Below, piece by piece: positions 12,648 through 32,615 of a DNA stretch of 34,142 nt (position 1 is its first letter; each line of letters begins with the position of its first letter). The stretch lies in IMG/VR virus record IMGVR_UViG_3300030106_001109, positions 1 through 34,142 of that record. One strand, given 5' to 3'. The translations under genes and the position numbers were made by a program. Source of the stretch: a virus. Below the pieces are notes generated by a model that had not been told where the DNA came from, ran no database searches, and was given only the letters and a program-made list of their open reading frames with translations.

Positions 12648-13238
12648 TCAGATTATTGATGCAACTCTTTGCAATGCAGTTTTGCACCAACAATAAAAAG
12701 AATGACAGAAGTTTAATTTGTTGTCAATAGTTTCACGTATTACAGCTGGTAAAGGAAATGTATTGTACTTGTGTGTTTTCATTACCTTTACGATAGCTTC
12801 TTTTAGTAAGACAGGTGGTATGTCTTTGATTGCTTCTATGTAATATTTAAGACCTTCATCCTTCGGAAGTTCTGTTTGAAAAGTGTTGCCAAGCACTTGT
12901 AAACTTTTGACAATACTTTCATTGGTAGCTGGTTTCATTGCAATATCTAACTGATGTATGACATTAGATATTCTTTTTTTTACAACAACAAGTTCTTTGT
13001 CATTTTTTATTTCTTCTAATTTGTCTGACGTTGCTCTCGCTATTGTATCTATCAAGATAAGATCGGACTGACTCAGCATTATTGGTAGAAACTCTGGTTG
13101 GTTTACTATTGGTTGTGGATGCTGGTACTTTTTTACCCAGTCGGAAAGACAGACGACACCAAAATCTGAAGGCGGCATCCCAGTTTGTTTTTGTGTTTCC
13201 TTTAGCAAGGTAGTAATCTCTGAACTGATTTTCTTCAT
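12648..13238 (-). CDS. Hypothetical replication-associated protein (possible helicase-loader-like)
   Basis: 196 aa. ATG with AGAGGA eight bases upstream. The C-terminal half (about 115-185) has EGLKYYIEAIKDIPPVLLKE, then AIVKVMKTHKYNTFPLPAVIRE. This pattern is seen in small phage replication or helicase-loader-type proteins, where a conserved stretch ends in a phenylalanine/proline-rich turn and ExxE-like helix. The N-terminal 79 codons lie in a different frame inside the upstream 116-aa gene, a 239-base overlap. A terminator follows the stop. The functional call is a guess from pattern and neighbours. Confidence 0.55.
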   Translation of the reverse strand: MKKISSEITTLLKETQKQTGMPPSDFGVVCLSDWVKKYQHPQPIVNQPEFLPIMLSQSDLILIDTIARATSDKLEEIKNDKELVVVKKRISNVIHQLDIAMKPATNESIVKSLQVLGNTFQTELPKDEGLKYYIEAIKDIPPVLLKEAIVKVMKTHKYNTFPLPAVIRETIDNKLNFCHSFYCWCKTALQRVASII

Positions 13239-13350
13239 ATTCTAAATCCTCTTTGTTTGCGTGTTTAAATGTATCAAAGAACCATACCTCTAGTTTACCA
13301 GACGGAGTCCAATCTTCAGAGATAGGTTCACCCTTATCGTATTTGCTCAT
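13000..13350 (-). CDS. Short protein resembling the C-terminus of phage replication initiators
   Basis: 116 aa. ATG with AAGGA six bases upstream. Residues about 35-72 read EDLEYEENQFRDYYLAKG, then TNWDAAFRFWCRLSFRLG. The FRDY-x3-KG-x(n)-NWDAAFRxWCR pattern is typical of the C-terminal end of DnaD/O-type phage replication proteins, here without the long N-terminal part. The last 45 residues are Ser/Asn/Arg-rich and probably disordered. It overlaps the next gene by 239 bases out of frame. It could be a trimmed replisome adaptor. The motif is seen; the role is inferred. Confidence 0.6.
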   Translation of the reverse strand: MSKYDKGEPISEDWTPSGKLEVWFFDTFKHANKEDLEYEENQFRDYYLAKGNTKTNWDAAFRFWCRLSFRLGKKVPASTTNSKPTRVSTNNAESVRSYLDRYNSESNVRQIRRNKK

Positions 13351-14353: not shown

Positions 14354-15250
14354 TCATACATCACCTACTGCTTTATCACTAGCAATCACTTCTGCTTTGT
14401 CACGTACAAAGAAGAAGGATTGACTAGCATACTTACAAGCAGAACGTAATGAGTCTGGCTTATCTCTAAGAGCCTTAGCCCATGACTTCAAGTAATGCAC
14501 GTGGTCACTTCTTGTTTCGTGCAACAAGTTGTAGTGAGCCATATGAAAACTTGCACCAAGTTCTGCTATAAGTTCCTCGAAAGCATAGTCGTGGGATGCA
14601 AAGTTACCTTTAAGGTTTCTGTTACATCTACTGCTATGCCCTGTCCAATGAGTAATCTCATGGAACAATGTACTGTAATAACTTTCTGGTTTCTTAAACT
14701 GTGTCCAATGTGGTACTTTGATTTCATCTGTTTCTGGTATATAACAAGCTCTGTTGTTACCATCAGTAATTCTAGCACCTACTTTTGGAAGGTCTACTTC
14801 TATCTCTCTGATAATATCATGATCAACTTTTCTTGTTGGTTTGATCAAAGATATTTTTAGGTCGTTGATGATTGACGTATCACCTTTTACATCATCAATA
14901 CTAAAGATAGCTATAGTCTTGAATGTCTTTTTTACTTTTTCTTTTTCAGTCTTAGGATCTATTTCTGTTTTGATTATAGGTTGCCATAATGGTATACCAG
15001 TACCAGTCCTAGGTTTTAGTCCTATCTTCTGCCATTGCATAAACGTACCCCAGACTGGTGTCTTGTAACCATACTTGAAGTTAAGATGAAACTGATTCCA
15101 ACCTGTGTATGCTTTGCCATCAACATTCATATGAAAGTTTTGAATCCATTTAGGCACGAAGGGTTGACTAGGATCATGCGACTCCATATCTTTGATGATT
15201 TGTTCTGTAATATCTTTTAGATTATCTTCAGCTAATTGTTTGATAGACAT
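14354..15250 (-). CDS. ArdC-like antirestriction protein (ssDNA-binding domain plus zincin)
   Basis: 298 aa. Residues about 5-115 match the N-terminal ssDNA-binding domain of ArdC/DUF1738 proteins (GKAYTGWNQFHLNFKYGYKT, WGTFMQWQKIGLKPRTG). Residues about 185-260 are a zincin-like metalloprotease: His197-Glu198-x2-His201 in LFHEITHWTGHSSR, with a downstream FEELIAELGA helix (about 224-233) supplying the third ligand. ArdC of plasmid pSA protects incoming DNA from restriction, so a similar early protective role is likely here. It overlaps the upstream gene by 23 bases. The family call is firm; function in this phage is inferred. Confidence 0.8.
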   Translation of the reverse strand: MSIKQLAEDNLKDITEQIIKDMESHDPSQPFVPKWIQNFHMNVDGKAYTGWNQFHLNFKYGYKTPVWGTFMQWQKIGLKPRTGTGIPLWQPIIKTEIDPKTEKEKVKKTFKTIAIFSIDDVKGDTSIINDLKISLIKPTRKVDHDIIREIEVDLPKVGARITDGNNRACYIPETDEIKVPHWTQFKKPESYYSTLFHEITHWTGHSSRCNRNLKGNFASHDYAFEELIAELGASFHMAHYNLLHETRSDHVHYLKSWAKALRDKPDSLRSACKYASQSFFFVRDKAEVIASDKAVGDV

Positions 15251-16048: not shown

Positions 16049-16082
16049 AATGTTCCTTTCTTTGATTAAATAAAACTTTGCA

Positions 16083-16180
16083 GTCATATGCTATGTCTGG
16101 TTGCATATACTACAAGTAGGCTGAGGTCGGCAAAGTGGTCACCGAGTTACGCATACTGAACCGAGCAGAAGGCATATGAC
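16083..16180. repeat. Inverted repeat GTCATATGC enclosing 80 bases
   Basis: GTCATATGC (16083-16091) and GCATATGAC (16172-16180) pair perfectly over nine bases. They enclose a relatively GC-rich 80-base segment that has short internal pairings (for example TCGG 16127-16130 with CCGA 16142-16145). The repeat could close a stem in a small RNA, or be two binding sites flanking a promoter region. Confidence 0.55.
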
Positions 16181-16285
16181 AAACTCATAAAACAAATACA
16201 AAATAAAATTTAGATTCTTAAGACTAGTCTTAAGTCGCTTGTCGGTGCGAGTACCGACTCTCGCCGAAGGCGAAAATTTTTTTTT
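16100..16285 (+). ncRNA. Putative plus-strand small RNA between two minus-strand genes
   Basis: This gene-free stretch ends in a plus-strand intrinsic terminator, although all neighbouring genes are on the minus strand. Going 5' to 3' it holds a GC-richer part (about 16118-16180), an A-rich linker, the perfect palindrome CTTAAGACTAGTCTTAAG (16217-16234), the hairpin GTCGGT-gcgagt-ACCGAC (16241-16258), and the terminator. A TATACT at 16106-16111 could be a -10, but no convincing -35 is found, so the 5' end is a guess. No open frame of note. The terminator is the main evidence. Confidence 0.4.
16261..16285 (+). terminator. Plus-strand rho-independent terminator
   Basis: TCGCC-GAA-GGCGA (16261-16273) followed by AAA and nine T (16277-16285). 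The T-tract is on the plus strand only. It stands tail to tail with the minus-strand terminator at 16296-16326, so two transcripts appear to converge here. Confidence 0.75.
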
Positions 16286-16295
16286 ATATTTGCAC

Positions 16296-16326
16296 AAAAA
16301 AAGGGCAACCAAATTAATGATTGCCC
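16296..16326 (-). terminator. Minus-strand rho-independent terminator of the 146-aa gene
   Basis: Minus strand: GGGCAA (16326-16321), 12-base loop, TTGCCC (16308-16303), then seven T (16302-16296). It lies about 20 bases after the stop of the 146-aa gene, making that gene a transcription unit of its own. Confidence 0.8.
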
Positions 16327-16347
16327 TGGGAGGATTATGACTTGATT

Positions 16348-16788
16348 TTAACTAGCCATTGATTTCTTCATATTTGCTCTTAACTTCTTTAGCTGGTCTG
16401 GACTTACTGTTTTTCCTTTCTCAGCTTTTATGCTATCCCAATTATTTAAGATATCTTTTCTTTCTTGTGGGGTATATGGTGTTTGTTTTATTGGTGACCA
16501 AACATCATCAATAAATGTATTGAATAAATTCTTATAGAACTCAAACACCTTAATATTTACTTCAAGATTATGAGCCAATAAGGAAACATCAGCTTCCTTG
16601 TCTTGCTCCAATCTATCCATTATCTTTTTGTCTGTGTCGTTCATTCTGTCCAATGCTTTCATATACCAGTTTTCAAAGTATATAACTTTTTCTGCTACTA
16701 TATTTGAACTCCTGCCTATAACTAATTGGTTGGTTTCTGCGTCGTGGTCTGCGTCTATGTTTAATAAATCAGTGATGAAGTTATTCAT
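16348..16788 (-). CDS. Hypothetical 146-aa early protein
   Basis: Opens MNNFITDLLNIDADHDAETN; then a helical, charged body (KALDRMNDTDKKIMDRLEQD, LLAHNLEVNIKVFEFYKNLF) and a Lys-rich end (SPDQLKKLRANMKKSMAS). No family recognised. AAAGGA lies six bases before the ATG. It is the first minus-strand gene next to the structured region 16789-17214 and has its own terminator, so it is a monocistronic early gene, the kind often expressed first for host takeover. That role is inference from position only. Confidence 0.6.
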   Translation of the reverse strand: MNNFITDLLNIDADHDAETNQLVIGRSSNIVAEKVIYFENWYMKALDRMNDTDKKIMDRLEQDKEADVSLLAHNLEVNIKVFEFYKNLFNTFIDDVWSPIKQTPYTPQERKDILNNWDSIKAEKGKTVSPDQLKKLRANMKKSMAS

Positions 16789-16810: not shown

Positions 16811-17059
16811 GTTGCTCAGGGCACCACGCCCTAAGTTACCATCTCAAAGAAACTAGGTAAAATTCAAATGCAAGTTTAGGTTATGGTCGGTACGGAGGAA
16901 CTTGCACCCACCTCGTGGGCACAATAATAAGGGCGAACAAATAAAGAGCGAACAACGTGAGCACAATATAAATATGGGTTCGCATCAGAAAATGTGTTTT
17001 AATTTTACCTAGTTTATTCTCCGCTTACCTCTTTTTCGTGGGCGTGGTCGCTGAGCAAC
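16811..17059 (+). ncRNA. Large multibranch structured element (candidate noncoding RNA)
   Basis: A 249-base gene-free segment with nested perfect pairings. P1: GTTGCTCAG (16811-16819) with CTGAGCAAC (17051-17059). P2: CCACGCCC (16824-16831) with GGGCGTGG (17040-17047). P3: AAACTAGGTAAAATT (16850-16864) with its 15-base complement (17001-17015). Inside lie P4, TGCAAGTT/AACTTGCA (16869-16876/16899-16906), directly abutting P5, CCCAC-ctc-GTGGG (16907-16919), and P6, GCGAAC/GTTCGC (16933-16938 or 16948-16953 with 16978-16983). A possible wobble pair extending P4, and the GNRA hairpin just downstream, favour the plus strand. No promoter is evident, and a DNA-level role (origin or packaging site) is possible. 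It matches no RNA class I can name. Confidence 0.5.
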
Positions 17060-17067
17060 TGGTGGGA

Positions 17068-17128
17068 GCATTGCACCGAATCAATACATAGATAGTGCAA
17101 TGCGAAGACAGACTCTGCGAAGAGTCTG
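17068..17128 (+). other. Two strong hairpins between the structured element and the terminase promoter
   Basis: Hairpin P7: GCATTGCAC (17068-17076) pairs with GTGCAATGC (17095-17103), nine perfect bases, 18-base loop. Hairpin P8: CAGACTCT-GCGA-AGAGTCTG (17109-17128), eight perfect bases closed by a GNRA-type tetraloop when read on the plus strand. Neither is followed by a T-tract. They may be further domains of the RNA upstream, or part of a packaging or origin site. The rest of the gap 16789-17214 holds no open frame that I support. Confidence 0.6.
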
Positions 17129-17162: not shown

Positions 17163-17206
17163 GTGTCAAATTATTGGCTTGACACAACATATAGACCCAC
17201 TACTAT
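17163..17206 (+). promoter_or_regulatory. Promoter of the packaging/structural arm with overlapping inverted repeat
   Basis: Consensus -35 TTGACA (17179-17184), 16-base spacer, -10 TACTAT (17201-17206). The -35 is the right arm of the inverted repeat GTGTCAA (17163-17169) / TTGACAC (17179-17185), nine bases apart, which looks like an operator. The ATG of the small terminase gene begins only eight bases after the -10, so the transcript would be leaderless or nearly so. Confidence 0.65.
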
Positions 17207-17214
17207 AGAACATA

Positions 17215-17589
17215 ATGAAGATAGACAAATCACAATCTCTCACAACAAGACAACAGGCATTTATTGATAACCTGTTAACAAATGGTGGTACTGCTACACA
17301 ATGTGCGATCAAAGCTGGATATAGTAAGAAATCAGCAAAGGTTGAAGCTAGTCGCTTACTCAAACAGGATAAGGTTTTGAAGGCACTACAGACACAAGCA
17401 ATGAAGTCACTTGGATACAGAAGTATTAGTGCTTTAGATACTGTATCAAATCTCTCACAAAATGCTAACTCGGAGTACGTAAGATTGGAAGCTAGTAAGG
17501 ATATACTTGATCGAGCTGGTATACGGACTGAAGATAGTCAACAGACTCAACTAGGTAATGCAATCCAAGTGAATATAGACCTGAAGTAA
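17215..17589 (+). CDS. terS: Terminase small subunit
   Basis: 124 aa. The Terminase_2/TerS DNA-binding region is clear: TTRQQAFIDNLLTNGGTATQ, then CAIKAGYSKKSAKVEASRLL with a helix-turn-helix, and a helical oligomerisation part (SEYVRLEASKDILDRAGI). It recognises the packaging site and hands DNA to the large subunit. It is the first gene of the plus-strand arm. No ribosome site precedes the ATG, and the -10 element ends eight bases upstream, so translation from a leaderless mRNA is possible. The large subunit follows after a cluster of tiny basic genes. Confidence 0.85.
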   Translation: MKIDKSQSLTTRQQAFIDNLLTNGGTATQCAIKAGYSKKSAKVEASRLLKQDKVLKALQTQAMKSLGYRSISALDTVSNLSQNANSEYVRLEASKDILDRAGIRTEDSQQTQLGNAIQVNIDLK

Positions 17590-31300: not shown

Positions 31301-32615
31301 TGGTTCTACTAATGTAACATATGCTGTGCAAATGCATTATCTTGATAAAAATAATATGACTGCAACTAATAAAGATTATTTAATGGATGGTACTGATATA
31401 TTTAAGTTTACTGTAAATCGTACCAACCAGCTAAATAATGCAATAAAAAATCAAGCAGTACAAGATGCTAAAAATTCAATTAACAATAATATTAAAATAG
31501 CAAAAAGAAATATAGAAAATAGCACAGTAGTAGATGATAAAGATAAACCAAGAATATTAGAAAACTTATCTTATAAAGAATTTAGTGAAAATAATTTATA
31601 TAAAGATATTAAAAATGGATCTAACTATATTGCTTATCATAGAGATAATTTATTCTTAGCAAAACCAAATGAAAATGGAGAAATACAAACAGTAAAAGGT
31701 ACAATTATATCTTTAGATTCTTATCCAGAAGAAAAAACTTTACAAGAATTTTTAAAAAATGATTCAGAACTTTTAAAAAAAACTACACATTATTTAGTGC
31801 CAACAATACGAGTAAATGCTCAAGGTGAATTAGAAGATGTACCACAGAGCCAAATACTAGCTCATGCAAAATCACTTGGTTTAAATAATTTAGTATCAGG
31901 AGATTCTGTACAAGAAGTTAGACAACATGAAATTAGATTAAAAAAAGTAATAGATGCTGATAATAAAACACATCAAGATAATCAAAACATTAAGGCTCCA
32001 CTACCTATGTTTACAGAAAATGCTAAAGGAGTAAAAGTAACTATTGATGTTATTAATGAAGTATTAGATTTATCTGACAAAGCATTTCCTAGTACTAAGT
32101 CTGGCAGAGATGATAACTTTAGAATGATGTTAAGTACAGCAAAAGCAGAAAGTAAATTTGGTATAGCAGAAGGATCTTTTGACCCCAATAGAGTAAGCAC
32201 TGGTATTTTTCAGTTTGATAAACGTAGAACTATTATAGATGAAAATGGTAAGCCTAAAGATATAATTCCTATTTTTGCTGATTTACAAAAATTTAAAATT
32301 AAATCAAGCAGAAAGTTTGCAAAGAATGTAGAAAAAATGGAAAAAGTAATTAATGAAAAATATCCAGATATGGATTTTAAATTTTCAGAACTGCAACATT
32401 CAGATTTAAGAGTACCATTTAATGCCGCAGTTGTTATGAGATTATGGCTTATGACTATTCCATCATCATATAAAACAATAGATCAAGCGGCAAAGTTATA
32501 TAAGGATAGATACAATAGTAATGATCCTAATGCAAAAGGTAGTGAAGAAGGTTTTAAATTATTAAATAGATATTTTTATAATAAAGAAGTACAGGATATT
32601 ATTGATGGCTACTGA
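28398..32615 (+). CDS. Large internal virion protein with C-terminal transglycosylase-like domain
   Basis: 1405 aa, in the T7 gp15 position. The first 1200 residues are helical, Lys/Asn/Glu-rich and without known motifs. Residues about 1230-1400 resemble an SLT/lysozyme-type fold: LSTAKAESKFG with Glu1251 as the likely catalytic acid, then STGIFQF (1268-1273, Gln1272), and later helices (VPFNAAVVMRLWLM, AAKLYKDRYN). It would locally open peptidoglycan as DNA enters. In T7 the transglycosylase is at the N-terminus of gp16, so its location differs here. Overlaps the next gene by 11 bases. Confidence 0.75.
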   Translation: MVKRYSDLNRLKVDTGTQVNVNLGRVDTRPVQAFFNAVSKSSDQFRQIAIKNATDRAKKDAKENAESATFEIHPATNKPIYDPILDGGSIYNQTYEEIYDQNYLAEVQTSFGKEVSDIRGNHVKKPDSAFSIGNLPTDMEEAKNNILDTLPLKFKNDFTTYADGTITRILDAEKQQVGTNLVNQNRSAWNKTKTTLLDEYRGSPSEENKTKLENHLNQADILFGPDEADALKASTEVEINSIPIAQAFIQEISKLEEGKGNELIFVNNRDQLMSVLEIIHNRTGTVNLTINGEDKSYSYSDIVAMFPTEARRKEVSSTIRSMIELRSKQNTNAVESKQFYKSVLDQAEKDIRTFSGSNEELQTLQQEFINSVENFVPTNSSEAFTGSALKSKTEAVAKIETLGELFLFNRLKKKEAINLKEDERELEFKMYTLEPEELKKALIIHQRNHPNTKYSIDNFESITATAQVMKQINIEELDPEKIEHNLMILNNGVLTEDYDQFYLDNDNAVSSKELVELAGSNGMTAIKNLFDRFSRGARGEGSGKKVEKLDNMVSLVNENIYQEVTPANADKIFVEMLKDELQLNPQLKDIDLGGDTTITQMLMKPDANGQTLVNSPEFATVISKLHNLSKLPKPLHGLIHDARYLNLKTIFEQSLPILDIIKEENENLYFREKNRSNSGIGFLESIGGLNVELNDDGSYSGITVTKFETLQKLFQQPDILNIVNNDVFKIIGKNKTKENVTTKDVKSAIQIMAEKQFKNDEDKLSIFKENLTDITNAVYSDVISRRYIGEDSFDVEDYIQKDLSSRVNRFVPSSKTPFVKSKRVDSIDHKLATNKEITITSKYNGLESLMSSYQVKLASEILSNGNVSLEESQPNLLDIIGNSITIPDVNKDRTFLAGNLKEETRINDFNTIIASEHNLELNFNNANLKTNQDILTPSITVNGQKQNVPIVIGKNARLQEVDTEELADGSTNVTYAVQMHYLDKNNMTATNKDYLMDGTDIFKFTVNRTNQLNNAIKNQAVQDAKNSINNNIKIAKRNIENSTVVDDKDKPRILENLSYKEFSENNLYKDIKNGSNYIAYHRDNLFLAKPNENGEIQTVKGTIISLDSYPEEKTLQEFLKNDSELLKKTTHYLVPTIRVNAQGELEDVPQSQILAHAKSLGLNNLVSGDSVQEVRQHEIRLKKVIDADNKTHQDNQNIKAPLPMFTENAKGVKVTIDVINEVLDLSDKAFPSTKSGRDDNFRMMLSTAKAESKFGIAEGSFDPNRVSTGIFQFDKRRTIIDENGKPKDIIPIFADLQKFKIKSSRKFAKNVEKMEKVINEKYPDMDFKFSELQHSDLRVPFNAAVVMRLWLMTIPSSYKTIDQAAKLYKDRYNSNDPNAKGSEEGFKLLNRYFYNKEVQDIIDGY

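Follow-up and report, generated by a model that had tools for sequence, protein, structure and literature searches.

A recurrent, fast-diverging giant-hairpin element at the early/late divergence point of Hodr-type pelagiphages and related podoviruses

The segment at 16811-17059 of the virus record IMGVR_UViG_3300030106_001109 is a small member of a recurrent, fast-diverging giant-hairpin element, which lies at the early/late divergence point in a broad podovirus group that comprises Hodr-type pelagiphages together with relatives from other aquatic samples. The window, by which we mean the whole stretch of DNA analysed (34,142 bases), carries one modest copy; in relatives the stems run to hundreds of bp and reach both flanking genes, which a first-pass annotation of the window could not see. 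The element is real and recurrent, has no earlier description that we could find and has strong comparative support; the function proposed below is putative.

Results

The early genes of the phage, between about 16.8 and 9.7 kb, are read leftward, and the late genes are read rightward from terS. The element occupies the gap between the first leftward gene and terS (Table 1), so the first-pass annotation had placed it correctly between the early and late arms, just upstream of terS. RNA folding of the plus strand of the segment gives -78.1 kcal/mol (z = -4.55, 0/200 shuffles as stable) and the minus strand gives z = -4.42 (also 0/200). The nested closing stems had been reported as 9, 8 and 15 bp and are 9, 9 and 15 bp, the 8-bp stem gaining one A-T pair. 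Helix mapping also recovered the inner hairpins that had been described, including the two that abut directly, plus a third arm. The element is richer in GC (0.438) than the 250 nt to its left (0.34), the 250 nt to its right (0.40) and the whole window (0.327), as had been claimed.

Table 1. Features of the early/late junction in the window
Position	Strand	Feature	Evidence in relatives or databases
16348..16788	-	First leftward (early) gene, 146 aa, uncharacterised	Very divergent all-helical family beside the hairpin in relatives
16811..17059	+	Whole multibranch hairpin element, closing stem to closing stem	MFE and z-score; kept in L082/L092
16811..16819	+	P1 5' strand, pairs with 17051-17059, 9 bp, GTTGCTCAG/CTGAGCAAC	Identical in L082
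16823..16836	+	P2 5' strand: 16823-16831/17040-17048 (9 bp), 16832-16836/17023-17027	
16850..16864	+	P3 5' strand, 15-bp perfect stem with 17001-17015	
16869..16906	+	Apical hairpin 1, 16869-16877/16898-16906, TGCAAGTTT...GAACTTGCA, G-rich loop	
16907..16919	+	Apical hairpin 2, 16907-16911/16915-16919, CCCAC-CTC-GTGGG, abuts hairpin 1 directly	
16920..16996	+	Third apical arm: 16920-16923/16993-16996 and 16933-16938/16978-16983	
16997..17059	+	3' strands of P3, P2 and P1	
17179..17206	+	Sigma-70-like promoter of terS, TTGACA, 16 nt, TACTAT	Conserved with L004, L082-L085
17215..17589	+	terS, small terminase subunit, first late gene	PHROG phrog_51, Pfam PF03592

Perfect 12-mer inverted-repeat seeds no more than 300 nt apart are confined to two sites of the 34-kb window, namely P3 (15 bp) and a 12-bp seed at 32288/32374, and P3 is the longest and strongest perfect inverted repeat within 300 nt across the window. 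The first-pass annotation had held that such nesting is beyond what AT-rich DNA usually shows. The z-score and the shuffles uphold this, but the strict Watson-Crick score of the window copy is 34, within the range of the shuffles (maximum 40) and of other windows of the genome (maximum 46), and is not exceptional. Similarly, a GC-adjusted scan of 249-nt windows puts the copy at about -2.1 SD, with several coding windows lower. Because the window copy is modest by both measures, the strength of the case comes from the relatives.

The region matched nothing in phage records at the nucleotide level, and relatives were therefore sought through the neighbouring proteins. TerL and TerS protein searches yielded more than 300 loci, to which the cultured pelagiphage EXVC031P Hodr was added. 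Folding of the 500 nt upstream of terS gave very long hairpins in many of these. A strong inverted repeat (strict score at least 50) is present at 103 of 176 non-redundant junctions upstream of terS and the score is at least 100 at 44 of them, with a maximum of 430; the controls reach 46 elsewhere in the same contigs and 48 in shuffles. Most of the relatives' repeats are far larger than the window copy. The largest is that of L003, in which 564 pairs extend over 1,145 bases at 77% identity; there the left arm spans almost the entire leftward ORF and the right arm continues for 262 nt into terS. The repeat of Hodr has 334 pairs at 86% identity. Sizes range from 66 to 1,145 nt, with medians of 380 nt for span and 0.82 for identity over a non-redundant set of 57 elements. 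The start codon of the leftward gene lies inside the left arm in 36/40, and 11 elements extend into terS; the stem of the window copy does not include the leftward ATG at 16788.

Sequence and length turn over fast among the relatives and position and pairing are kept. A branched domain of about 120-130 nt tops the long stem in several clades, and the window copy shows this arrangement too. A short second hairpin like apical hairpin 2 is present in L200, L210, L217 and L179, and the third apical arm carries the AAGGGCGAA and GAGCACAATA motifs, which are common to L003, L083 and L086. The apical motifs of the window's clade occur almost only on the plus strand and at the junction. Small C(NNN)G loops recur among the elements; GNRA and UNCG loops are not enriched in them. 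Among six more distant terminase relatives, the giant hairpin is absent in MEP301, Mwe-JY08, Ss1, VA-RY-3 and Pmp11; the deposited genome of BcepC6B (NC_005887, L332 1-98) begins with a separate quasi-palindrome of 98 bp, which lies upstream of the repressor-terS genes.

Chance folding of AT-rich DNA is ruled out by the shuffle z-score, the control scores and the recurrence in relatives. An assembly artefact is excluded by the cultured isolate Hodr, the many independent contigs and the compensatory changes described below. An invertible segment flanked by inverted repeats is also excluded, because the arms meet at a loop of 3-4 nt in many relatives. A search for N4-like hairpin promoters or stable GCGAAGC mini-hairpins found only three C(GAA)G stems.

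As judged from alignments of relatives, the pattern of changes shows conservation of base pairing without conservation of sequence. In many clades compensatory Watson-Crick double changes are more numerous than shuffling predicts, for example in L194/L197 (15 vs 2.1), L259/L261 (10 vs 0.9) and L266/L265 (15 vs 3.1); relatives thereby pass the covariation test that the first-pass annotation had proposed. Double changes in close pairs are mostly isolated single pairs (69/82 runs). In the L099-L103 alignment (A2) 95.8% of cells are paired and there are 19 covarying pairs, against 7.6 +/- 2.0 in shuffled alignments and 0-3 in slid controls. As members of one clade cannot be treated as independent, the counts should not be read as strict probabilities, and the argument is the recurrence of the signal across clades. 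L082, from the window's own clade, keeps the fold with P2 re-formed on a shifted partner and the third arm shortened, and supplies the only compensatory change seen for the window's copy (16874/16901, G-C to A-T).

The mismatches within the helices show which strand folds. Read on the plus strand, isolated mismatches are G.T in 225 cases and A.C in 36 over all elements, and G.T in 150 and A.C in 30 (p about 2e-20) in the 57 non-redundant elements. Random best inverted repeats from elsewhere also have more G.T than A.C (134 vs 96), so part of this bias is background. The non-redundant elements have 29 G.G against 7 C.C, and 77 A.G against 89 C.T. The plus-strand RNA fold is more stable than the minus in 68/77, and single changes in close pairs favour G.U (90 vs 41). 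A C-to-T deamination bias on the plus strand cannot explain the excess of G.G over C.C, and the composition of third codon positions shows no large strand asymmetry of mutation and no large excess of T. It is thus the plus (rightward) strand that folds, as the first-pass annotation had proposed. In DNA, G.A mismatches are favoured over C.T. Judged by such nearest-neighbour rules, the mismatch spectrum lies nearer to that of RNA than to that of DNA.

The first-pass annotation had also proposed a noncoding RNA read on the plus strand. A multibranched, structured and undescribed element is borne out; a discrete RNA gene is not, as neither a plus-strand sigma-70-like promoter to the left of the element nor a terminator to its right was found. 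The suggested roles in packaging, towards the host or as an origin are conjectural. In 76 loci such promoters are almost absent on the left, without enrichment, and a promoter-like site recurs at -150 to 0 of terS. No intrinsic terminator (a GC-rich hairpin followed directly by a U run) lies within 16811-17059. A plus-strand terminator-like hairpin with a long T run, at 16261-16273, would stop rightward read-through from further left. The terS transcript is predicted to start no more than about two bases from the ATG (17201-17215) and no Shine-Dalgarno sequence is evident; the terS mRNA may be leaderless.

The first leftward gene has a minus-strand terminator-like hairpin at 16302-16327. Profile comparison links several clades of its family and leaves others unlinked. 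An AlphaFold model of the L179 homologue, the sole model made, is a helical hairpin (pLDDT 84.7), and its comparison with solved structures in the PDB gave no informative match (all E > 0.04). Elsewhere in the early arm, 14354-15250 (minus strand) encodes an ArdC-like antirestriction protein with a zincin metallopeptidase domain.

Several other features were observed around the junction. A further noncoding stretch with structure (z -4.2) is found at 16080-16290 (plus strand) and ends in the 16261-16273 hairpin; its identity to L082 is 96%, against 89% for the adjacent gene, and it is a candidate plus-strand small RNA. Two strong hairpins lie between the giant hairpin and the terS promoter (17068-17128), at 17068-17076/17095-17103 and at 17109-17116/17121-17128 with a GCGA loop. 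An operator-like inverted repeat, TGTCAA-N-TTGACA at 17163-17185, overlaps the -35 box of the terS promoter and is conserved in L082, L083 and L085. A double G-tract (GGGGGG..GGGGGG), the two runs about one and a half helical turns apart, is found upstream of terS on the plus strand at 96/176 junctions and on the minus strand at 7 (control 6/141); it follows the terS promoter in one clade (L099, at -51), sits in an apical hairpin loop in others (L179, at -282), and is possibly an operator or pac site. In L099-L101, iteron-like repeats of TTTATAG-ATG-like words lie about 90-150 nt upstream of terS, just before the promoter. Left ends of contigs (L099-L330) cluster 0-200 nt upstream of terS, with about threefold enrichment (16 vs about 5 per bin), but share no common end sequence. 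Read as genome ends they fall at no fixed sequence, and strain variation would account for the enrichment equally well.

Discussion

The element matches no class known to us, in agreement with the first-pass annotation. Rfam 15 at the gathering score gave no match in the whole window, and permissive thresholds gave only sub-threshold, chance-level matches in the region and ten relatives. No published description was found in the open-access literature. The element belongs to a hairpin family, not described before as far as we found, in which folding is conserved across relatives and sequence is not.

Some known systems are nevertheless similar in part. The pRNA of phi29 is a small, branched RNA of fixed size encoded near the packaging genes, in phages without a classical terminase pair; the present element is likewise structured, branched and near packaging genes, but this phage has both terS and terL and there is no match to a packaging RNA in Rfam. 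Like telRL of N15, the telomere palindrome on which protelomerase acts, it is a palindrome in a phage genome. Here, however, the records run through the palindrome, the arms are imperfect and differ between relatives, and no protelomerase was found among the 20 window proteins scanned. Lambda cos and SPP1 pac are protein-binding and cleavage sequences that also lie just upstream of the small terminase gene; they are short sites and not hairpins of hundreds of bp. The ornate RNAs GOLLD and ROOL are large, structured, covariation-supported RNAs of phages and prophages, of unknown function and often near tRNA islands (PMC12286853). The element resembles them in its size, structure and covariation support. 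They are recognised by covariance models, however, and this element matches neither the family models nor Rfam, being one long hairpin with little sequence conservation and a fixed place between the early arm and terS; ARAGORN found no tRNA or tmRNA in the 34-kb window. Finally, a 460-bp palindrome in the E. coli chromosome is reported to form DNA hairpins at forks (PMC4245961). Its long arms, small loops and possible fork hairpins, and its size range, overlap with those seen here. The E. coli palindrome is perfect and chromosomal, in contrast with the imperfect, naturally maintained arms of the phage element, with their compensatory changes and strand-biased mismatches. Long inverted repeats that could fold in single-stranded DNA, as in fork palindromes of the SbcCD substrate type, are present in L003 and Hodr, and the window copy is much smaller.

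We infer that the element works as RNA, and among the functional readings RNA is modestly favoured over DNA. The mechanism we favour, tentatively, is a cis-acting double-stranded barrier in rightward RNA. In RNA that crosses the junction rightward, the left arm, which is antisense to the 5' end of the first leftward gene and usually also to its start codon, would pair with the right arm. The folded arms would form a double-stranded barrier that does not depend on sequence and would probably be cleaved by RNase III. The barrier would prevent rightward RNA from silencing early mRNA in trans and would keep it apart from the terS operon, whose own promoter lies, for most elements, on the right-hand side. 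A more sequence-specific signal may in addition reside in the multibranch apex. The recurrence at 103/176 junctions, the compensatory changes, the mismatch spectrum, the stability of the plus-strand fold and the start codon within the repeat argue for this barrier; the missing left promoter, the terminator-like hairpin at 16261-16273 and the lack of enrichment of RNA tetraloops argue against it. RNase III needs only about two helical turns, which leaves arms of hundreds of bp unexplained by the enzyme.

The main rival is a hairpin of plus-strand DNA, in which the lagging-strand template would fold at a rightward fork and be processed or recognised as a break, a restart site or a start for packaging or recombination. 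The polarity of the fork fits if the origin is in the early region, near the DnaT-like initiator at 13000-13350, and the hairpins reported on replication strands for the E. coli palindrome (PMC4245961) lend it a precedent. The phage also carries Erf annealing and RecE-like exonuclease genes, and the small loops and the lack of a left-hand promoter fit DNA, as does a site beside terS reminiscent of pac or cos. A.G mismatches are about as common as C.T, whereas DNA should favour the purine pair, and on balance we regard this reading as possible but rather doubtful. Alternatively, the start codon in the left arm could be taken to mean that the element is a minus-strand leader or masks the ribosome-binding site of the leftward gene. 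This is very improbable and is disfavoured by the mismatch bias, since A.C, which is G.U on the minus strand, is the depleted class; the minus strand also folds worse, and the ATG of the window is outside the stem.

A discrete, trans-acting structured RNA, acting as a regulator, on the host, or in the virion or packaging, would account for the multibranch apex, for the apical domain that recurs in several clades and for the plus-strand, junction-bound apical motifs of the window's clade. It is unlikely, as it has no promoter or terminator of its own that we found, no conserved sequence core across clades, a size that varies from 66 to 1,145 nt, arms that reach into coding sequence and no Rfam match. 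The fold may instead be a functionless by-product of mutation, template switching at a quasi-palindrome having repeatedly copied one arm onto the other. The extreme length, the fast turnover and the extension into flanking genes would be expected of this, and a copied single change also mimics a compensatory one. Copying is strand-neutral, however, and would not be expected to give the excess of G.T over A.C, the greater stability of the plus strand or the preference of single changes for G.U; nor would recurrence at one site in unrelated sequences follow from it. We consider a by-product quite unlikely.

On the boldest reading, the element may represent a new class of phage element in marine podoviruses: a very long, sequence-free hairpin RNA, with arms of up to about 560 pairs, placed at the early/late divergence point, whose evolution is tied through base pairing to that of the coding sequences of two divergent genes and which serves as a dsRNA insulator or decoy during the early-to-late switch. 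We put this forward as a possibility that is still open to considerable doubt. The element is testable because it has a cultured member, EXVC031P Hodr on Pelagibacter HTCC1062. Elements of this kind, whose sequence is not retained, are invisible to homology searches, and others like them may therefore be common but overlooked. Pairing that is kept without sequence across many lineages, and that overlaps one or both neighbouring genes, implies an unrecognised mechanism at the level of RNA or DNA.
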